A stretch of DNA of 64,000 bases from a virus. The translations under genes and the position numbers were made by a program. Below are positions 8,004-33,611 of this stretch, one piece after another (the first letter of the stretch is position 1; each line of letters starts with the position of its first letter). The stretch spans positions 1 to 64,000 of the IMG/VR virus record IMGVR_UViG_3300045131_002362, one strand, 5' to 3'. A model generated the notes under the pieces. It had not been told where the DNA came from. It ran no database searches and worked only from the letters and a program-made list of their open reading frames with translations.

Positions 8004-8047
8004 GAACACCTGACGCAGTATTGGTGAACACCGACGGAGCCCCCGAT

Positions 8048-10687
8048 ATGAAACTCACAAATCTCGAACTGAACGGAACGCTACTGTTCACCTCTGCCGG
8101 TGAAACGAAGTCTGTTGTCATGACAACGGACGCCGATGGCATTCCGTACAGCGCCTATTACGTCATGCCGAACGGTTACGTCTCCTGGCTGTCCGTCACG
8201 GTTGTAGACAATGTGTTCGCCATGAAGGCGACCAGCAACCTGTTTTCCGAAACGTCGAGGAGTGTGGTTGTGAGCTTCAGATGTATGCCGACGGCCGGCG
8301 GCACACTTCAGACGACGAACGTCACTGTTACGCAGGCGGCTGACACGGTTGCCCTGACGTTTGACCCGACACAGGTCTCGCTGGCGTACGACGCGGGGGC
8401 CACCGACGACGTGACCGTGACCGGCATACCGTCGGGCGCAATCGTCACTGTCTCAGCTCCCGAATGGCTCACGGCAGCTTTCTCTTCCGCAACAACTCTT
8501 GCTGTGACCGCCGCGCTTAACGTTTCGGAGGATGACCGTGTCGGCACTGTCACCGTCGGTGTTGACGGAAGATCTTTCTACCTCACCGTCACGCAGGCCG
8601 CAAATACCTCGACCATCACGTTTGATCCGACAGAGGTATCGCTGGCGTATAGCGCAGGGGCCACCGACGACGTTACAATCACCGGCATACCCTCCGGCGC
8701 ATCCGTGACTGTCTCTGCGCCCGAGTGGCTCACGGCCTCTGTGCTTGCTGGCGTTCTGACGCTCACTGCGACAGAGAATCCTAGCGGTTCGGAACGCACA
8801 GGAACAGTGAACCTTGTCGTTGTGGGGAAGACGTGGCCGCTGACTGTGGCCCAAGCAAAGAACCCCTTCCTGTACGGGCCGCTCACGCTTGACGAGCAGT
8901 CCTATGACGCGCCATACTCCGGAGGATCTGTGACGGTCACGGCGACAGCCATGCCGTCGAACGCAAGCACCTTCTCGATCGCCGTGAAGCGGTCCGGATC
9001 TTGTACAGCCTGCGAAGACTCAGAAAACGTGATCACGTTCGAGCAACTGAGCGCGACATCTGTGAAGATCATTGTAGGTGCGCAGGATCTGTTCGACGGG
9101 ATTGAACGTGGCTTTACGCTGACGTTTACAGCCGGAAACGAGACGGCCACTTTCACGATCACGCAGGAGGCGCCCGACGCGTATCACCGGTATTATGGCG
9201 TTGGAGACAAGTTCTTGCGCTCGGCAGTTTCCGAGAAGACACCGACCTATCTCGCCCCGTCGACCGTACAGCAGCTTTTGGCTGAGTTGAAAACGACCGG
9301 ATGGACACAGCTCGAGTCGCTGAGGGCTCCTGTATTGGTTGCCACCAATCTCGATTCCGTGCCGAAGAAGATCCTCTCGCATGAGGCGTTCAAGGCGTGC
9401 CATGGGCACACGACGGTCGATGGCACGACCTTCCACCAGGTCTCGATGGGCGCCGCCGTATACAGGTTCATTTTCGATCCTGCGGCATACGGCCTTGTGC
9501 TGAAGGGCATCCGTTTCATCGTAAGATCCGACGCATATTGCGCCGAGGGGCTCCGTGTAGCGCTGGACACGACAAGCACCTCTGACACGCCCTCGGAAGA
9601 CTGGTTGGCCATAAGGGAAGGCACAGCAGGCTTTTTCAAGCCTGGTTGTGCCCCGCGAGTTTTGCGGGACGCGGGATATTACGGCGCTTCGGAAACGGTC
9701 GTGTTCTCGCCGATCAACGTCACGATCTCGGCAGAGACTCGACTGTACCTGTACCTGACCCTTGAGGACTACCGTGGGATCATCAACGGCTGGGTTTACG
9801 GCTCCGGTCTTATCAATCCCGTGTTCGACTTCTTCGCTGCGGATGAGGATACGGTCGAGGGAGTAGAGAATTATGACACGATCGCCCAGTCGGCGATACA
9901 GAAAGACGGATACCCGCTCGTGACGGACGGTACGGTTCTGTCGCCGATGGCAGATCCGGCGAATCCTTCCGAGGGCCGCGAGATTGCGATCCGCGCTGTC
10001 AATTTCGGCACGTCGCCCTCGAAGAACGATCCGACGCCTGTCGAGGCAGCGAGCGCGATCGCCTTCCTTGCCGCGCGAATCGCCGAGAGCGGTATGGCGC
10101 AGGCGGATCTGTCGGCCACCCCGATCACGGCCTGGCAGGCGCACCAGTTTGGACTGGGCTGCGCCATCTGCCGGCAGATCATCGGTGCAACAGCGCCCTT
10201 CTCTCAGCGCCTGATCCAAACGGTTTCGCCTCTGGCCGTGCTGTGCGCCTTGCCGCCAAACTACACGCCAGCGTTCGTCAGACTGACTCACAGGGCCGGG
10301 CAGGCGACTTTTGTCGTTTCCGGCGCGGATGTCCGGCTGTCGGTTTACTGGATCGCGTCGAAGGCCGTGACGCTGAAAGAACTCGGCGACCTCTATGCGG
10401 CTCCGGCGTTCTCTCTCGGCGAGTCAAAGATTGAGGGCGGCGGAATGACGGCGGAACTGCTCGGCAGCAAGCGCATTCCGTCTTCGGTCGCCGCGCTGAC
10501 GGAGGTCGCCATCGAGATTGTGCCGCCTTCCGCGCGCTGGGGCACGCTGCTCATCGTTCCGTGGATCGCCCGTGTGACGGCAACGTCGCTGGTGGCGAAT
10601 GAGCCGATCGGTCTTGTGGGTATTGAGGTTCTCGAAAACGAAATCGCCGGAACCGCCTGGGTCCCGGACGTGAAACTGGAGGCATGA
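8048..10687 (+). CDS. Tail adhesin with four BACON-like domains
   Basis: An 879-residue protein. Four beta-sandwich repeats occupy about residues 12-96, 101-183, 188-270 and 279-374. Repeats 2 and 3 share SAPEWLTA, and all four end in a VTQA-type strand, the pattern of BACON domains found in Bacteroidota surface proteins and the crAssphage tail region, where carbohydrate or mucin binding is proposed. The remaining 500 residues are unrecognised and may form the fibre body. Start at ATG 8048 with GGAG upstream; a TTG at 8021 is possible. The stop overlaps the next start (ATGATG). Confidence 0.75.
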   Translation: MKLTNLELNGTLLFTSAGETKSVVMTTDADGIPYSAYYVMPNGYVSWLSVTVVDNVFAMKATSNLFSETSRSVVVSFRCMPTAGGTLQTTNVTVTQAADTVALTFDPTQVSLAYDAGATDDVTVTGIPSGAIVTVSAPEWLTAAFSSATTLAVTAALNVSEDDRVGTVTVGVDGRSFYLTVTQAANTSTITFDPTEVSLAYSAGATDDVTITGIPSGASVTVSAPEWLTASVLAGVLTLTATENPSGSERTGTVNLVVVGKTWPLTVAQAKNPFLYGPLTLDEQSYDAPYSGGSVTVTATAMPSNASTFSIAVKRSGSCTACEDSENVITFEQLSATSVKIIVGAQDLFDGIERGFTLTFTAGNETATFTITQEAPDAYHRYYGVGDKFLRSAVSEKTPTYLAPSTVQQLLAELKTTGWTQLESLRAPVLVATNLDSVPKKILSHEAFKACHGHTTVDGTTFHQVSMGAAVYRFIFDPAAYGLVLKGIRFIVRSDAYCAEGLRVALDTTSTSDTPSEDWLAIREGTAGFFKPGCAPRVLRDAGYYGASETVVFSPINVTISAETRLYLYLTLEDYRGIINGWVYGSGLINPVFDFFAADEDTVEGVENYDTIAQSAIQKDGYPLVTDGTVLSPMADPANPSEGREIAIRAVNFGTSPSKNDPTPVEAASAIAFLAARIAESGMAQADLSATPITAWQAHQFGLGCAICRQIIGATAPFSQRLIQTVSPLAVLCALPPNYTPAFVRLTHRAGQATFVVSGADVRLSVYWIASKAVTLKELGDLYAAPAFSLGESKIEGGGMTAELLGSKRIPSSVAALTEVAIEIVPPSARWGTLLIVPWIARVTATSLVANEPIGLVGIEVLENEIAGTAWVPDVKLEA
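8360..8737 (+). repeat. Two 117-bp direct repeats encoding BACON units
   Basis: Bases 8360-8476 and 8621-8737 are clearly related copies, 261 bases (87 codons) apart. Both encode TFDPT-V-LAY-AGATDDVT-TGIPSGA. Most differences are third-position changes, which points to a fairly recent in-frame duplication under protein-level selection. Confidence 0.8.
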
Positions 10688-29026: not shown

Positions 29027-30181
29027 CTATTCGTATCTCGACGGACGACCACCGAAGGTCTTGTCCACGAGCAGCTTCTCGTTCGCGTCCCAGCGGGCCT
29101 TGACGGCCTCGACAACCTTGGCGATCAGCCCGTTCGTCTCGACGAACAGCGCCGCGTCCTTGCCGACGTACTCGATACCGATCTTGCGCAGGTCGTAGCC
29201 TTGCGGCACTATCTTTTTCTTTCTGCCGCCCTCCTCTTCCTTCTCTTCCTCCTCGTCCTTCTTTTTTCCGTCCACGGTGCCGTAGACCTTCTTCGCCTTT
29301 TCGTCCTTCGGCGGCGGATCAGGCTTGATGACGCCCTCGGACCAGAGCCAGTCGAGGTTGGCGCGGGTGTCGTCGATGCCGTAGGCGGGCATGATGGGGA
29401 ACCAGACTTCGCGGGCCTTACCGTTGGCCTTGCTGCGGGCAATCTTCGCGATCGTCCAGTCGCCGACCTTCACAGTGCCCTCCTTGATCTGCCCGCCCTT
29501 GCTGAGCCACATTTCGATGAAGGCGAAGAAGCCGAGCGCCTTGCCGCCGCCACGGATCTTCGGTGCGAACATGGCGCCCTTGCCAATAGCCTCGGCAGCC
29601 TGCGACAGGTAGATTAGGAAAGAGCCGTTCATCGGCAGGTTGCCCGCGAGGCGGCGCAGAAGGTACTTGTTCGCCACGGCCCGCAGCGCAAGCGCGCCGC
29701 CGCTGTCGCCCTTCGCATCGTTAGCGTACTCCTGCTCGGCGATGAGCGTGTCCATGCTGTCGATCACGAAGAACTGCGGCTTCTTCTCCATCCACGCGAG
29801 CATCTTGAGCGCCAGGTTTTGTGTCGACCATTCCTTGTCGTACGGGATCGGGATGATCTCAAGCGCAGCAGCGAACTTCTTACCGAACAGCGCCGCCGTG
29901 TTGAAACAGTAGGCGTTCTCCGCATCCAGCAGCTTGTAATCGAAGTGATTGCCGTAGCGCTTGAACGTCTCGGCCATCGACGCGATCGCCTGCATCGTCT
30001 TGCCGGCGTTCCTGTCGCCGATGCTGTTGACGCCCTGTCCAGCGCGGCAGAAGCCGTCCGTTGTGTCGGTACACGCGAGGTCGAGAAGCGTCGAGCCGCT
30101 CGGGATAATGAGCCCAGGAGCGGCGGTCGCGATCTCCATGACGCTCTCGGCGTCGATCGCGTTGGTCTTTCTCTTTGCCAT
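29027..30181 (-). CDS. RecA/UvsX-like recombinase
   Basis: A 384-residue RecA-fold ATPase. Walker A is GDRNAGKT (55-62), Walker B FFVIDSMDTL (137-146). GGGKALGFFAFIEMWL resembles the RecA/UvsX segment before the DNA-binding loop. A Glu/Lys-rich low-complexity stretch near 310-330 is followed by a C-terminal helical domain. It should pair strands in recombination-dependent replication with the SbcD/Rad50 pair and SSB encoded upstream. Confidence 0.8.
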   Translation of the reverse strand: MAKRKTNAIDAESVMEIATAAPGLIIPSGSTLLDLACTDTTDGFCRAGQGVNSIGDRNAGKTMQAIASMAETFKRYGNHFDYKLLDAENAYCFNTAALFGKKFAAALEIIPIPYDKEWSTQNLALKMLAWMEKKPQFFVIDSMDTLIAEQEYANDAKGDSGGALALRAVANKYLLRRLAGNLPMNGSFLIYLSQAAEAIGKGAMFAPKIRGGGKALGFFAFIEMWLSKGGQIKEGTVKVGDWTIAKIARSKANGKAREVWFPIMPAYGIDDTRANLDWLWSEGVIKPDPPPKDEKAKKVYGTVDGKKKDEEEEKEEEGGRKKKIVPQGYDLRKIGIEYVGKDAALFVETNGLIAKVVEAVKARWDANEKLLVDKTFGGRPSRYE

Positions 30182-30369: not shown

Positions 30370-30924
30370 TTAAAAGGGAACGTCGCCAGCCTTATAGGTC
30401 GTCGGCTGTGCTTTCGGCACAATCACAGGAATTGGTACCGGAGCGCTCAACACAGTATAGTTGTCTCTGGTCACTTCGACCCCAGCAAGCGCGAAGGATG
30501 TTTTGACCATCGCCACGATCGTCTGGAACATCGCGTGCCGCTGCTGACGCCAGCACTGATGCGGCAGAGACTTGTAAATCTCTCCAGCCCTGCGCCAGAC
30601 AGCATAGTCCAGCGGATGCAGAAAGACGAAGTTGACGCGCAGCGTATCGCCTCCGAATTTAACGTCCGCGTGTACCCCGCTATTGTAATCGCTGCGGTCG
30701 ATGTGTACGCAGGCCGCTTCGAGATAGCTCTCGACATCCTGGCGAAACATGACTGACACCGCGAGATCGATGTCGCTGTCCTCACCGGCCTCATCGAACG
30801 CCACCGATCCTGTCAGAAACATCTCCTGCATAATCGCAAACGACGCGCCGAATGTCGCCCGCACAAACTGTTCTGCGTCTTCGGCAGTCGGCTTCCGCGT
30901 GGAACCGCTACACTTTTCCTGCAT
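30370..30924 (-). CDS. Nucleotidyltransferase-fold protein
   Basis: A 184-residue protein. FLTGSVAFDEAGEDSDIDLAV is the GS-(x)n-DxD motif of pol-beta superfamily (MNT-type) nucleotidyltransferases, near residues 37-57. A third Asp (HADVKFGG) is correctly placed later. Substrate unknown: options are antibiotic- or protein-AMPylating enzymes, or RNA end modification. It begins 20 bases after the tRNA-Gln 3' end. The second ATG (30924) fits AAAAGG better than the first (30933). Confidence 0.7.
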   Translation of the reverse strand: MQEKCSGSTRKPTAEDAEQFVRATFGASFAIMQEMFLTGSVAFDEAGEDSDIDLAVSVMFRQDVESYLEAACVHIDRSDYNSGVHADVKFGGDTLRVNFVFLHPLDYAVWRRAGEIYKSLPHQCWRQQRHAMFQTIVAMVKTSFALAGVEVTRDNYTVLSAPVPIPVIVPKAQPTTYKAGDVPF

Positions 30925-30944
30925 GTTCGTCATCCTTTTGCTAA

Positions 30945-31018
30945 TGGCTGCGCCGGAAGGACTCGAACCTTCTCACCGGGGATCAAAGCCCCGTATGCTG
31001 CCATTACATCACAGCGCA
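30945..31018 (-). tRNA. tRNA-Gln (TTG)
   Basis: A 74-base cloverleaf including an encoded CCA. Acceptor TGCGCTG pairs with CGGCGCA (one G-U), discriminator G. The anticodon stem CGGGG/CCCCG encloses CTTTGAT, so the anticodon is TTG, reading CAA. The T arm carries GGTTCGAGTCC. Its 5' end is one base after the tmRNA 3' end. Confidence 0.95.
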
Positions 31019-31019
31019 A

Positions 31020-31351
31020 TGGTGGAGGCGGGGGGAATTGAACCCCCGTCCGCCGATTGCTATACGTTGAAGCTACGCGCGTGTCCCGATTAGGTCGGGC
31101 AACCGAGAGCGACCCGGCAACAACTCCGAGCCTTCCACCATCCCGTTCCTTGGTCTACGGGCAACCGTCACGTTCCCTTTCGATGATTCGGTTCACCGCC
31201 GCTCAGGGTGCAGCGGGAACTATAGCGGCGATTAGGCCGCGATTTTCTCAGGCATGGCCTTTGAAGTTTTGCCTTGATTTTTACGTGGCCATCTAGGCTA
31301 CCACGGCACGCATCAACGTAATCGAAACCGGCGTCGAAACCTGACGCCCCC
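31020..31351 (-). ncRNA. ssrA: tmRNA (ssrA)
   Basis: A 332-base tmRNA on the minus strand. The 5' end GGGGGCGTCAGGTTTCGAC and 3' end CCCCGCCTCCACCA are the standard tRNA-like ends: GGGGGCG pairs with CGCCTCC (one G-U), and the T loop has GGTTCAATTCC. The likely resume codon is GGC (31273-31271). The tag reads GKTSKAMPEKIAA and ends at TAA 31234-31232, inside a GCGGC/GCCGC stem as usual. tmRNA frees stalled ribosomes and marks the peptide for proteolysis. Phage copies are known but uncommon. Confidence 0.95.
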
Positions 31352-31396: not shown

Positions 31397-31462
31397 AGAC
31401 CCATGCGCGGGCTGTACTCCGGAAAGGCGAGGGCAGACAATCCCTCAACCGCGCAGGGGTCT
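31397..31462 (-). terminator. Branched hairpin upstream of tmRNA
   Basis: On the minus strand, AGACCCC-TGCGCGG (31462-31449) pairs with CCGCGCA-T-GGGTCT (31410-31397) over 14 positions with one mismatch. Inside it, GAGGG pairs with CCCTC. CTTTTCC follows. It lies between a stop codon and the tmRNA 5' end, so it may stop readthrough or guide processing. Confidence 0.5.
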
Positions 31463-32307: not shown

Positions 32308-33300
32308 TCAGATCCCCTTCGGCGCGAGATGCGCCAGATCCCCGCTAAGGCCGTGGAATCCCGTGTTGTAGTAGTTGTCCCGCAGCGCGTCGATCACCGT
32401 GAGCGAGAACGCGCGCTTCGGCTTGCAGGGCGCCTTGTCGCTGATGAGCGTGCCGCCGAACCAAGCGAGCAGGCCGCGCCGCAGCCCCTCTGCATCTTCG
32501 CCGTCCTCCTTCAGCTTGCGCAGCACGCCGGCCACGCGGTCGAAGTCGCGGCTCTCCACGGCGGTTGCCAGATCCTTCAGGTTCGGTGTGAAGTCCTCGC
32601 TCATCGTCTGGCAGTCGACCTTGATACGGTCGATCTCCTGGGCGCGCAGGTCGATCGGCAGTGAGGCCAGCCGGGCCATGTTGTTGATGGCGACGCGCAC
32701 GCAGCGTCGGGAGTTCTGGCCGCAGATCGCAACCTCCTCCTTCGACAGACCGAGGGGCTCCTGCTCGTTGATAAGCGTCAGCCGCGCCAGCATGTCCTCG
32801 GGCCGCACGTCCATCGTGTCGATGCGGAAGGGCCGCGTCAGCAGCGCCCCCTTGCCGCCAGTCAGCTTCTCGGGCGAGTTCGTCACGAAGCAGACGTAGG
32901 TGTTCGCGGGAATGCCCTTTTCGAGGGGCTCCATGAACATCTCCTGCGCCGCCGTCGTGATGTTGTGCGCCTCCTCGAAGATGAAGGCGCGGCTGTTGCT
33001 CATCAGCGACGAGGCCGTCAGCTCCGTCGTGAGGAACTCGGTCACGAAGTCGATCTTGCCGCACTCACGGCTATTGAACACGCGGATATCGCCGCAGCCG
33101 AACGCCTCCATCAGGATATGGACGAGCGTGCTCTTGCCGCTGCCGGTCGGGCCGGTCAGCAGCATGAAGCCGGGACGCCGGCTCGGCTGCGTGTCGATCA
33201 GCGTCTGGCACTTGGCCTTTGCGATCGGGTTTCCGCACACGTCCGACAGCTTCGTCGGGTTCCAGCGCCGGTAAAGCGACGCCTGTTCTTTCTCAGCCAT
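32308..33300 (-). CDS. Sliding-clamp loader ATPase subunit
   Basis: A 330-residue AAA+ protein. Walker A GPTGSGKS (50-57), Walker B AFIFEEAHN (105-113, Glu replacing the first Asp of DEAH), sensor-1 CFVTNSPEKL, and SRRCVRVAINNMARL in the lid domain. The N-terminal LYRRWNPTKLSDVCGNP is typical of RFC/gp44/DnaX subunits. It should load the clamp encoded at 46.4-47.6 kb. No separate small subunit (gp62) is recognised, though neighbours at 33.3-33.6 kb are candidates. The start at 33300 follows GGGAGAATGATT. Confidence 0.85.
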   Translation of the reverse strand: MAEKEQASLYRRWNPTKLSDVCGNPIAKAKCQTLIDTQPSRRPGFMLLTGPTGSGKSTLVHILMEAFGCGDIRVFNSRECGKIDFVTEFLTTELTASSLMSNSRAFIFEEAHNITTAAQEMFMEPLEKGIPANTYVCFVTNSPEKLTGGKGALLTRPFRIDTMDVRPEDMLARLTLINEQEPLGLSKEEVAICGQNSRRCVRVAINNMARLASLPIDLRAQEIDRIKVDCQTMSEDFTPNLKDLATAVESRDFDRVAGVLRKLKEDGEDAEGLRRGLLAWFGGTLISDKAPCKPKRAFSLTVIDALRDNYYNTGFHGLSGDLAHLAPKGI

Positions 33301-33302
33301 AA

Positions 33303-33611
33303 TCATTCTCCCTTGGTTTGTTTCTCGATGCTGTTGTGCCGCGCCCACAGGATCATCGCCCGGTTGGCGATGTCGATTATCCGCTCATTGTCGTCGTCGG
33401 GGGTGTACTCCGACTCGAACATGTCCATGCGGAGGCAGGACGCGTCAACGAACAACTCATTCGCGATATGATGGTCGGCCGGAACGTCCTTGTCCCAGCC
33501 GCGCTTGCCGGCGACGGCGCGCTCGATGAGAACGCGCTTCATCTCGGCAGCGAAGGCGTCGACAGCCTTGGCCAGCTTTTGCTTTTCAAGAATCAGATGG
33601 AAATCGATCAT
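33303..33611 (-). CDS. Unknown 102-residue protein next to clamp loader
   Basis: A helical, charged protein (MIDFHLILEKQKLAKAVD at the start). It ends three bases before the clamp loader start, so they are probably translated together. A replication accessory is possible from position alone. Confidence 0.5.
   Translation of the reverse strand: MIDFHLILEKQKLAKAVDAFAAEMKRVLIERAVAGKRGWDKDVPADHHIANELFVDASCLRMDMFESEYTPDDDNERIIDIANRAMILWARHNSIEKQTKGE

Follow-up and report, generated by a model that had tools for sequence, protein, structure and literature searches.

Is a tmRNA gene that turns up in a viral genome a working phage gene, and is its tag shaped for the phage? tmRNA releases ribosomes that have stalled and appends a tag to the incomplete protein. 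The question is raised here by the window, the whole stretch of 64,000 nucleotides that was analysed, which is part of the 86,708-base (86.7-kb) IMG/VR record IMGVR_UViG_3300045131_002362 of an uncultivated bacterial virus.

A tmRNA gene in a phage replication module

The tmRNA of the window is a genuine gene (Table 1). The Rfam covariance search gives a full-length match to RF00023 (1-374, E 1.2e-46) that scores 120.8 bits, where the gathering score of that family is 47, and ARAGORN also calls a complete tmRNA at 31351-31020 on the minus strand. The boundaries in the initial annotation are exact, with the CCA encoded at 31022-31020, a perfect T-arm and a UAA stop codon lying in a hairpin. Judged from its sequence, the gene is probably functional. 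One nucleotide downstream, on the same strand, follows a tRNA-Gln (UUG); screening the record for further tmRNA or tRNA genes returned none beyond this one tmRNA and one tRNA.

Both genes are located within a T4-like replication module, where the neighbours of the tmRNA are a clamp loader upstream and a UvsX/RecA-like recombinase downstream. The DNA polymerase of the phage matches phrog_1252, and genes for terminase, portal and head protease are present in the record beyond the limits of the window. The order clamp loader - tmRNA - UvsX is common to the window and a related phage, L060 (26% identity to the window for the clamp loader and 34% for UvsX). Given the replication operon, the virion genes and the shared gene order, the gene is phage cargo rather than a host attachment-site tmRNA. 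The initial description as a phage-encoded tmRNA with a tag of its own thus holds, and homologues in related phages agree with it. A search of the record, which is classed as linear and may be a fragment, found no SmpB gene; the tmRNA therefore presumably relies on SmpB of the host.

Table 1 Features of the tmRNA locus and of the encoded RNA (window coordinates)
Feature	Coordinates	Strand	Evidence
tmRNA gene (ssrA), 332 nt, 3' CCA encoded	31020..31351	-	Rfam RF00023, ARAGORN, homologous tmRNAs in related phages
tRNA-Gln (UUG), CCA encoded	30945..31018	-	ARAGORN; Rfam RF00005 56.8 bits
UvsX/RecA-like recombinase, downstream neighbour of tmRNA	29027..30181	-	phrog_97 5.2e-15, PF00154 5e-14
DNA polymerase clamp loader, adjoining the tmRNA upstream	32308..33348	-	phrog_5846 3.4e-22
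Acceptor stem, 5' strand; includes G3 of the Ala identity pair, whose partner is U 31026	31345..31351	-	helix 1 covariation
PK1: stem CGUGG/CCACG and stem GCCUaGAU/AUCaAGGC; contains the rejected Gly codon	31271..31305	-	covariation, helices 5 and 6
Tag frame GCC AUG CCU GAG AAA AUC GCG GCC UAA (AMPEKIAA, stop)	31232..31258	-	resume codon at tmRNA position 94; L053 alignment
P5 hairpin bearing the tag end and the UAA stop	31225..31240	-	sequence; helix 7, 73% paired
PK3: CCCGU/ACGGG, loop ACCA pairs with UGGU	31137..31161	-	covariation, helices 9-11
Two hairpins at the PK4 position	31085..31132	-	helix 13, 2 compensatory pairs
T-arm GGGGG UUCAAUU CCCCC	31031..31047	-	sequence; helix 14, 100% paired

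A sigma-70 scan gave no promoter for the tmRNA. About 45 nt upstream, at 31397-31462 on the minus strand, lies a long hairpin (AGACCCCUGCGCGG...CCGCGCAUGGGUCU) followed by CUUUUCC, which resembles a terminator for the genes preceding it and would leave scant space for a tmRNA promoter. Directly after the tmRNA and tRNA-Gln, with its start codon 11 nt past the end of the tRNA, is a gene for a small nucleotidyltransferase (30370-30933, minus strand; motif GS..DSDID; PF01909 2e-5), which also has a weak match to the MntA antitoxin, far under the cut-off of that model.

Related phages were gathered by UvsX alignments and 50 records were searched for tmRNA, of which three contain one over the cut-off (the contig of L053, L060 and L123; the tmRNAs of L060 and L123 are identical). 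A fourth homologous tmRNA, that of L045, is closer to L060; the evidence for kinship of L045 to the window phage is this tmRNA together with a single protein that L045 shares with L053. In the contig of L053 the tmRNA is located further along, and neither L053 nor L060 has a tRNA adjoining the tmRNA. The clamp loader used as a query in viral contigs gave no relatives, the SbcD-like alignment set of related phages gave no further tmRNA, and blastn of the tmRNA locus against phage records gave nothing at 1e-5 and, when relaxed, short matches only, mostly to the T-arm.

By their 5' domain, the nearest one-piece tmRNAs are those of Hydrogenedentota and Bacteriovoracaceae (tags such as ANEPLAMAA, ANNELALAA and GNEYAMAA), a likeness too weak for naming a host. 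The window also encodes an 888-aa protein of the structural region with three BACON stretches (8021-10687, plus strand; PF13004 3.3e-18). BACON domains are often seen in phages of Bacteroidota, and this protein is a possible hint toward the host.

Fold of the RNA and reading frame of the tag

A structure was written for the window RNA and scored on an alignment of three distinct sequences, its own and those of L053 and L060/L123. In this alignment 86.2% of the cells are paired, compared with 37-45% when the partners are slid by 1-3 columns, a count that is favoured by deriving the structure from one of the aligned sequences. Compensatory changes are less prone to that bias: 19 pairs are altered on both sides, a number reached by 0 of 500 shuffles. 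The minimum free energy is about 2 SD better than that of shuffled sequences (z -1.96), which taken alone is weak evidence.

The tRNA-like domain comprises the G3.U pair, the T-arm and the CCA, without an anticodon arm. G3.U is kept as GU in all three distinct sequences and also in L045, and the next pair of the acceptor stem switches from G-C to C-G. Within PK1, the first stem (helix 5) is 100% paired with three compensatory pairs and the second (helix 6) is weaker (66.7%), while helices 9-11 of PK3 are 100% paired in all three sequences, one pair being compensatory. We conclude that the acceptor stem, P2, the first stem of PK1 and PK3 are well supported, and that the second stem of PK1 and the stop-codon hairpin are partly supported. 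As for the pseudoknots between the tag and the 3' domain, on which the initial annotation had made its reading depend, PK3 is backed by covariation, whereas the PK2 helix in the form tested is only 61% paired across the alignment, so that this form is not conserved, and the PK4 site apparently holds two hairpins. The stems of the first of these hairpins in the three phages are GGCUCGG/CCGGGUC, GGUGUCU/AGACGCC and GGGUGAUG/CAUCGCCC.

The resume codon is GCC (Ala) at tmRNA position 94, after a 12-nt spacer (AAAACUUCAAAG) from PK1, and the frame is open from there to the UAA at positions 118-120 inside P5. Among 150 bacterial tags, 95% start within positions 88-96; the RF00023 alignment also puts this GCC at the resume codon, and the tag of L053 starts at the site homologous to position 94. 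The tag is therefore AMPEKIAA, with a small and nonpolar C-terminus. The tag as first read, GKTSKAMPEKIAA, had the frame and the stop codon right and the start wrong, since its GGC (tmRNA position 79) belongs to the 3' strand of PK1. With the start corrected, the Gly resume codon and the Lys-rich tag that had been proposed both fall. The tag given by ARAGORN, AAIVPAAP, begins at position 123, beyond the true stop, and was likewise rejected.

The four related tmRNAs encode the tags AMPEKIAA (window), AYEYKTAA (L053), DNEYKLAAA (L060/L123) and NTERKLAA (L045), among which only the Lys and the Ala-Ala end persist. The reading frame and the Ala-Ala end are retained despite strong sequence divergence.

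Basic residues near the tag end and the role of the tmRNA

Bacterial tmRNAs sampled via five phyla, which do not cover all bacteria, yielded 112 distinct tags. At position -4, where AMPEKIAA has its Lys, 101 of the 112 carry Ala and one carries Lys or Arg. In a first phage sample of 27 tags called by ARAGORN, 7 have Lys or Arg at -4 (p 3.6e-5) and 10 have one of the two within -5 to -3, compared with 2 of the 112 bacterial tags (p 8e-7); it was this sample itself that prompted the test. Most matches of a second viral scan were host-type tmRNAs (E. coli-type ANDENYALAA) near contig ends; the remaining 14 distinct usable tags, which were hand-picked, include one with Lys or Arg at -4 (p = 0.21 alone, not significant). 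When both samples are combined with the hand-read tags, including the family of the window itself and with one wrong ARAGORN tag swapped, 14 of the 47 distinct phage tags have Lys or Arg within -5 to -3, as do 2 of the 112 bacterial ones (p 6e-7, by a Fisher test that ignores lineage and so treats the tags of related phages as independent, which they are not). The swapped tag was AQQQKALIT, given for L019/L055, where another frame yields NNLALAA; some other ARAGORN calls, for phages or for bacteria, may be in error too. The enrichment of basic residues near phage tag ends is a good lead, not a result. The initial suggestion had been that the tag may differ from that of the host and redirect tagged peptides; what the comparison shows is a statistical difference near the C-terminus between phage tags and the bacterial tags sampled.

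We consider it likely that the window encodes a working phage tmRNA whose tag is shaped for the phage. The gene, its structure, tag and homology and its partly kept position are observed, and we infer its activity, host factors and effect on proteolysis. By analogy with bacterial tmRNA, the RNA would be produced in infected cells and aminoacylated with Ala by the AlaRS of the host via the G3.U pair. Host SmpB and EF-Tu would deliver it to ribosomes that have stalled where an mRNA is broken off, and a lytic phage that degrades host mRNA may generate many such ribosomes. Translation would resume at GCC and add (A)AMPEKIAA. ClpX mainly contacts the C-terminal Ala-Ala, with a modest contribution from the third-last residue (PMC7652416), so that AMPEKIAA should remain a signal that host ClpXP can read; the initial proposal of IAA as a ClpXP-type end is plausible on the same grounds. 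In the E. coli tag, the AANDENY preceding ALAA binds SspB (PMC8512704), and since AMPEKIAA lacks a motif of this type, delivery by an adaptor in the manner of E. coli is unlikely. The Lys at -4 suggests a phage-shaped tag, and its simplest role would be to tune or redirect proteolysis while ribosome rescue is kept.

The tmRNA may instead act by dosage alone, adding rescue capacity when host mRNA is degraded while its tag drifts and the Lys has no special role. This is a credible reading, and one we lean against: the main ClpX contact is indeed retained in the tag (PMC7652416), and phage tags vary widely, several ending in plain ALAA, but all four related tags, different as they are in other respects, have the Lys, and the tags of other phages repeatedly show basic residues. 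The single-nucleotide gap between tmRNA and tRNA-Gln, on one strand of a record with only one tRNA, would also fit a set of replacements for RNAs destroyed by host defence, with the two genes restoring translation after nucleases have cut host tRNA or mRNA; phage tRNAs are proposed as counter-defence in PMC10264068. We think this unlikely, as the tmRNAs of L053 and L060 stand without a neighbouring tRNA.

That the RNA is an inhibitory decoy, sequestering host SmpB and blocking trans-translation of the host, seems highly improbable. A molecule for which this was suggested exists in the tmRNA of phage DS6A, which consists of the TLD only (PMC4131195); unlike it, the window tmRNA has a complete mRNA part, with tag, stop and pseudoknots kept under divergence. 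It is common for a viral contig to include a host tmRNA gene, whether from a prophage attachment site or through misassembly, and many viral matches of the second scan show host-like tags near contig ends, yet such an origin is scarcely credible for a gene placed centrally within a replication operon of a phage, one whose homologues and flanking genes are common to related phages and for which the phage collection gives only short matches, mostly to the T-arm.

Beyond the preferred reading of the window gene as a working tmRNA with a phage-shaped tag, phage tmRNAs as a class might encode a modified degron in which a basic residue directly precedes a hydrophobic-Ala-Ala end, such that rescue is kept, the choice of protease or the rate of proteolysis is changed and recycling is uncoupled from host quality control during infection. 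This generalization, drawn from tag sequences, is put forward tentatively, and we would sooner bet against it. If Lys or Arg does alter proteolysis, phages would reshape the output of trans-translation rather than merely boost it. The testable pattern, of Lys or Arg in phage tags where the sampled bacterial tags carry Ala, is a more useful result than the gene.

Comparison with described tmRNAs

With bacterial one-piece tmRNA (RF00023), the window RNA shares the G3.U acceptor stem, T-arm, P2, PK1, the 12-nt gap from PK1 to the resume codon, the tag, the stop in P5 and PK3. It differs in its tag of eight residues with Lys at -4 and in having two hairpins in place of a clear PK4.

Mycobacteriophages and Bacillus phage G (PMC4131195), Bradyrhizobium phages (PMC12656738) and others are already described as carriers of tmRNA, and with the window gene a new, divergent group of phages joins them. 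Like those of mycobacteriophages Bxz1, Cali and Wildcat and of phage G (PMC4131195), the tmRNA is complete, phage-borne and presumably served by host SmpB, whereas the phage is of an unrelated type with a single tRNA; cluster C1 mycobacteriophages have genomes of ~155 kb with about 30 tRNAs. The Bradyrhizobium elkanii phages (PMC12656738), compared by gene content, also have a tmRNA without a tRNA array, and they differ in encoding DNA polymerase A, where the window polymerase belongs to phrog_1252. The initial view that phage tmRNAs are rare is in part out of date, since dozens of viral contigs with a tmRNA came up in pattern scans, although many from the second scan resemble host tmRNAs at prophage edges. 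A literature search with subscription papers outside its scope found, in the accessible text, no treatment of the tag ends of phage tmRNAs.

Lys or Arg near the tag end, as in the window, is also found in Pseudomonas phage PaMx31, Bordetella phage PHB04 and Caulobacter phage CcrBL9 (VRLAA, IRAAA and VKLAA, respectively), whose tmRNAs differ in being permuted and two-piece (RF04321). Permuted two-piece tmRNAs occur in the cultured phages PaMx31, PHB04, CcrRogue and CcrBL9 (L266, L267, L269 and L270) and are unannotated in the stretches viewed. Two further contigs, L011 (~1897-2221) and L018, hold a tmRNA overlooked by ARAGORN, with the tag AAPRRMAA and a UGA stop; a tRNA-Gln(UUG) lies ~120 nt downstream, recalling the pairing in the window. 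Finally, in Gordonia phage GodonK (L268), a tmRNA match of 529 nt (104-632) overlaps an annotated tRNA-His (183-244), reflecting either a long insertion or a mistaken tRNA annotation.
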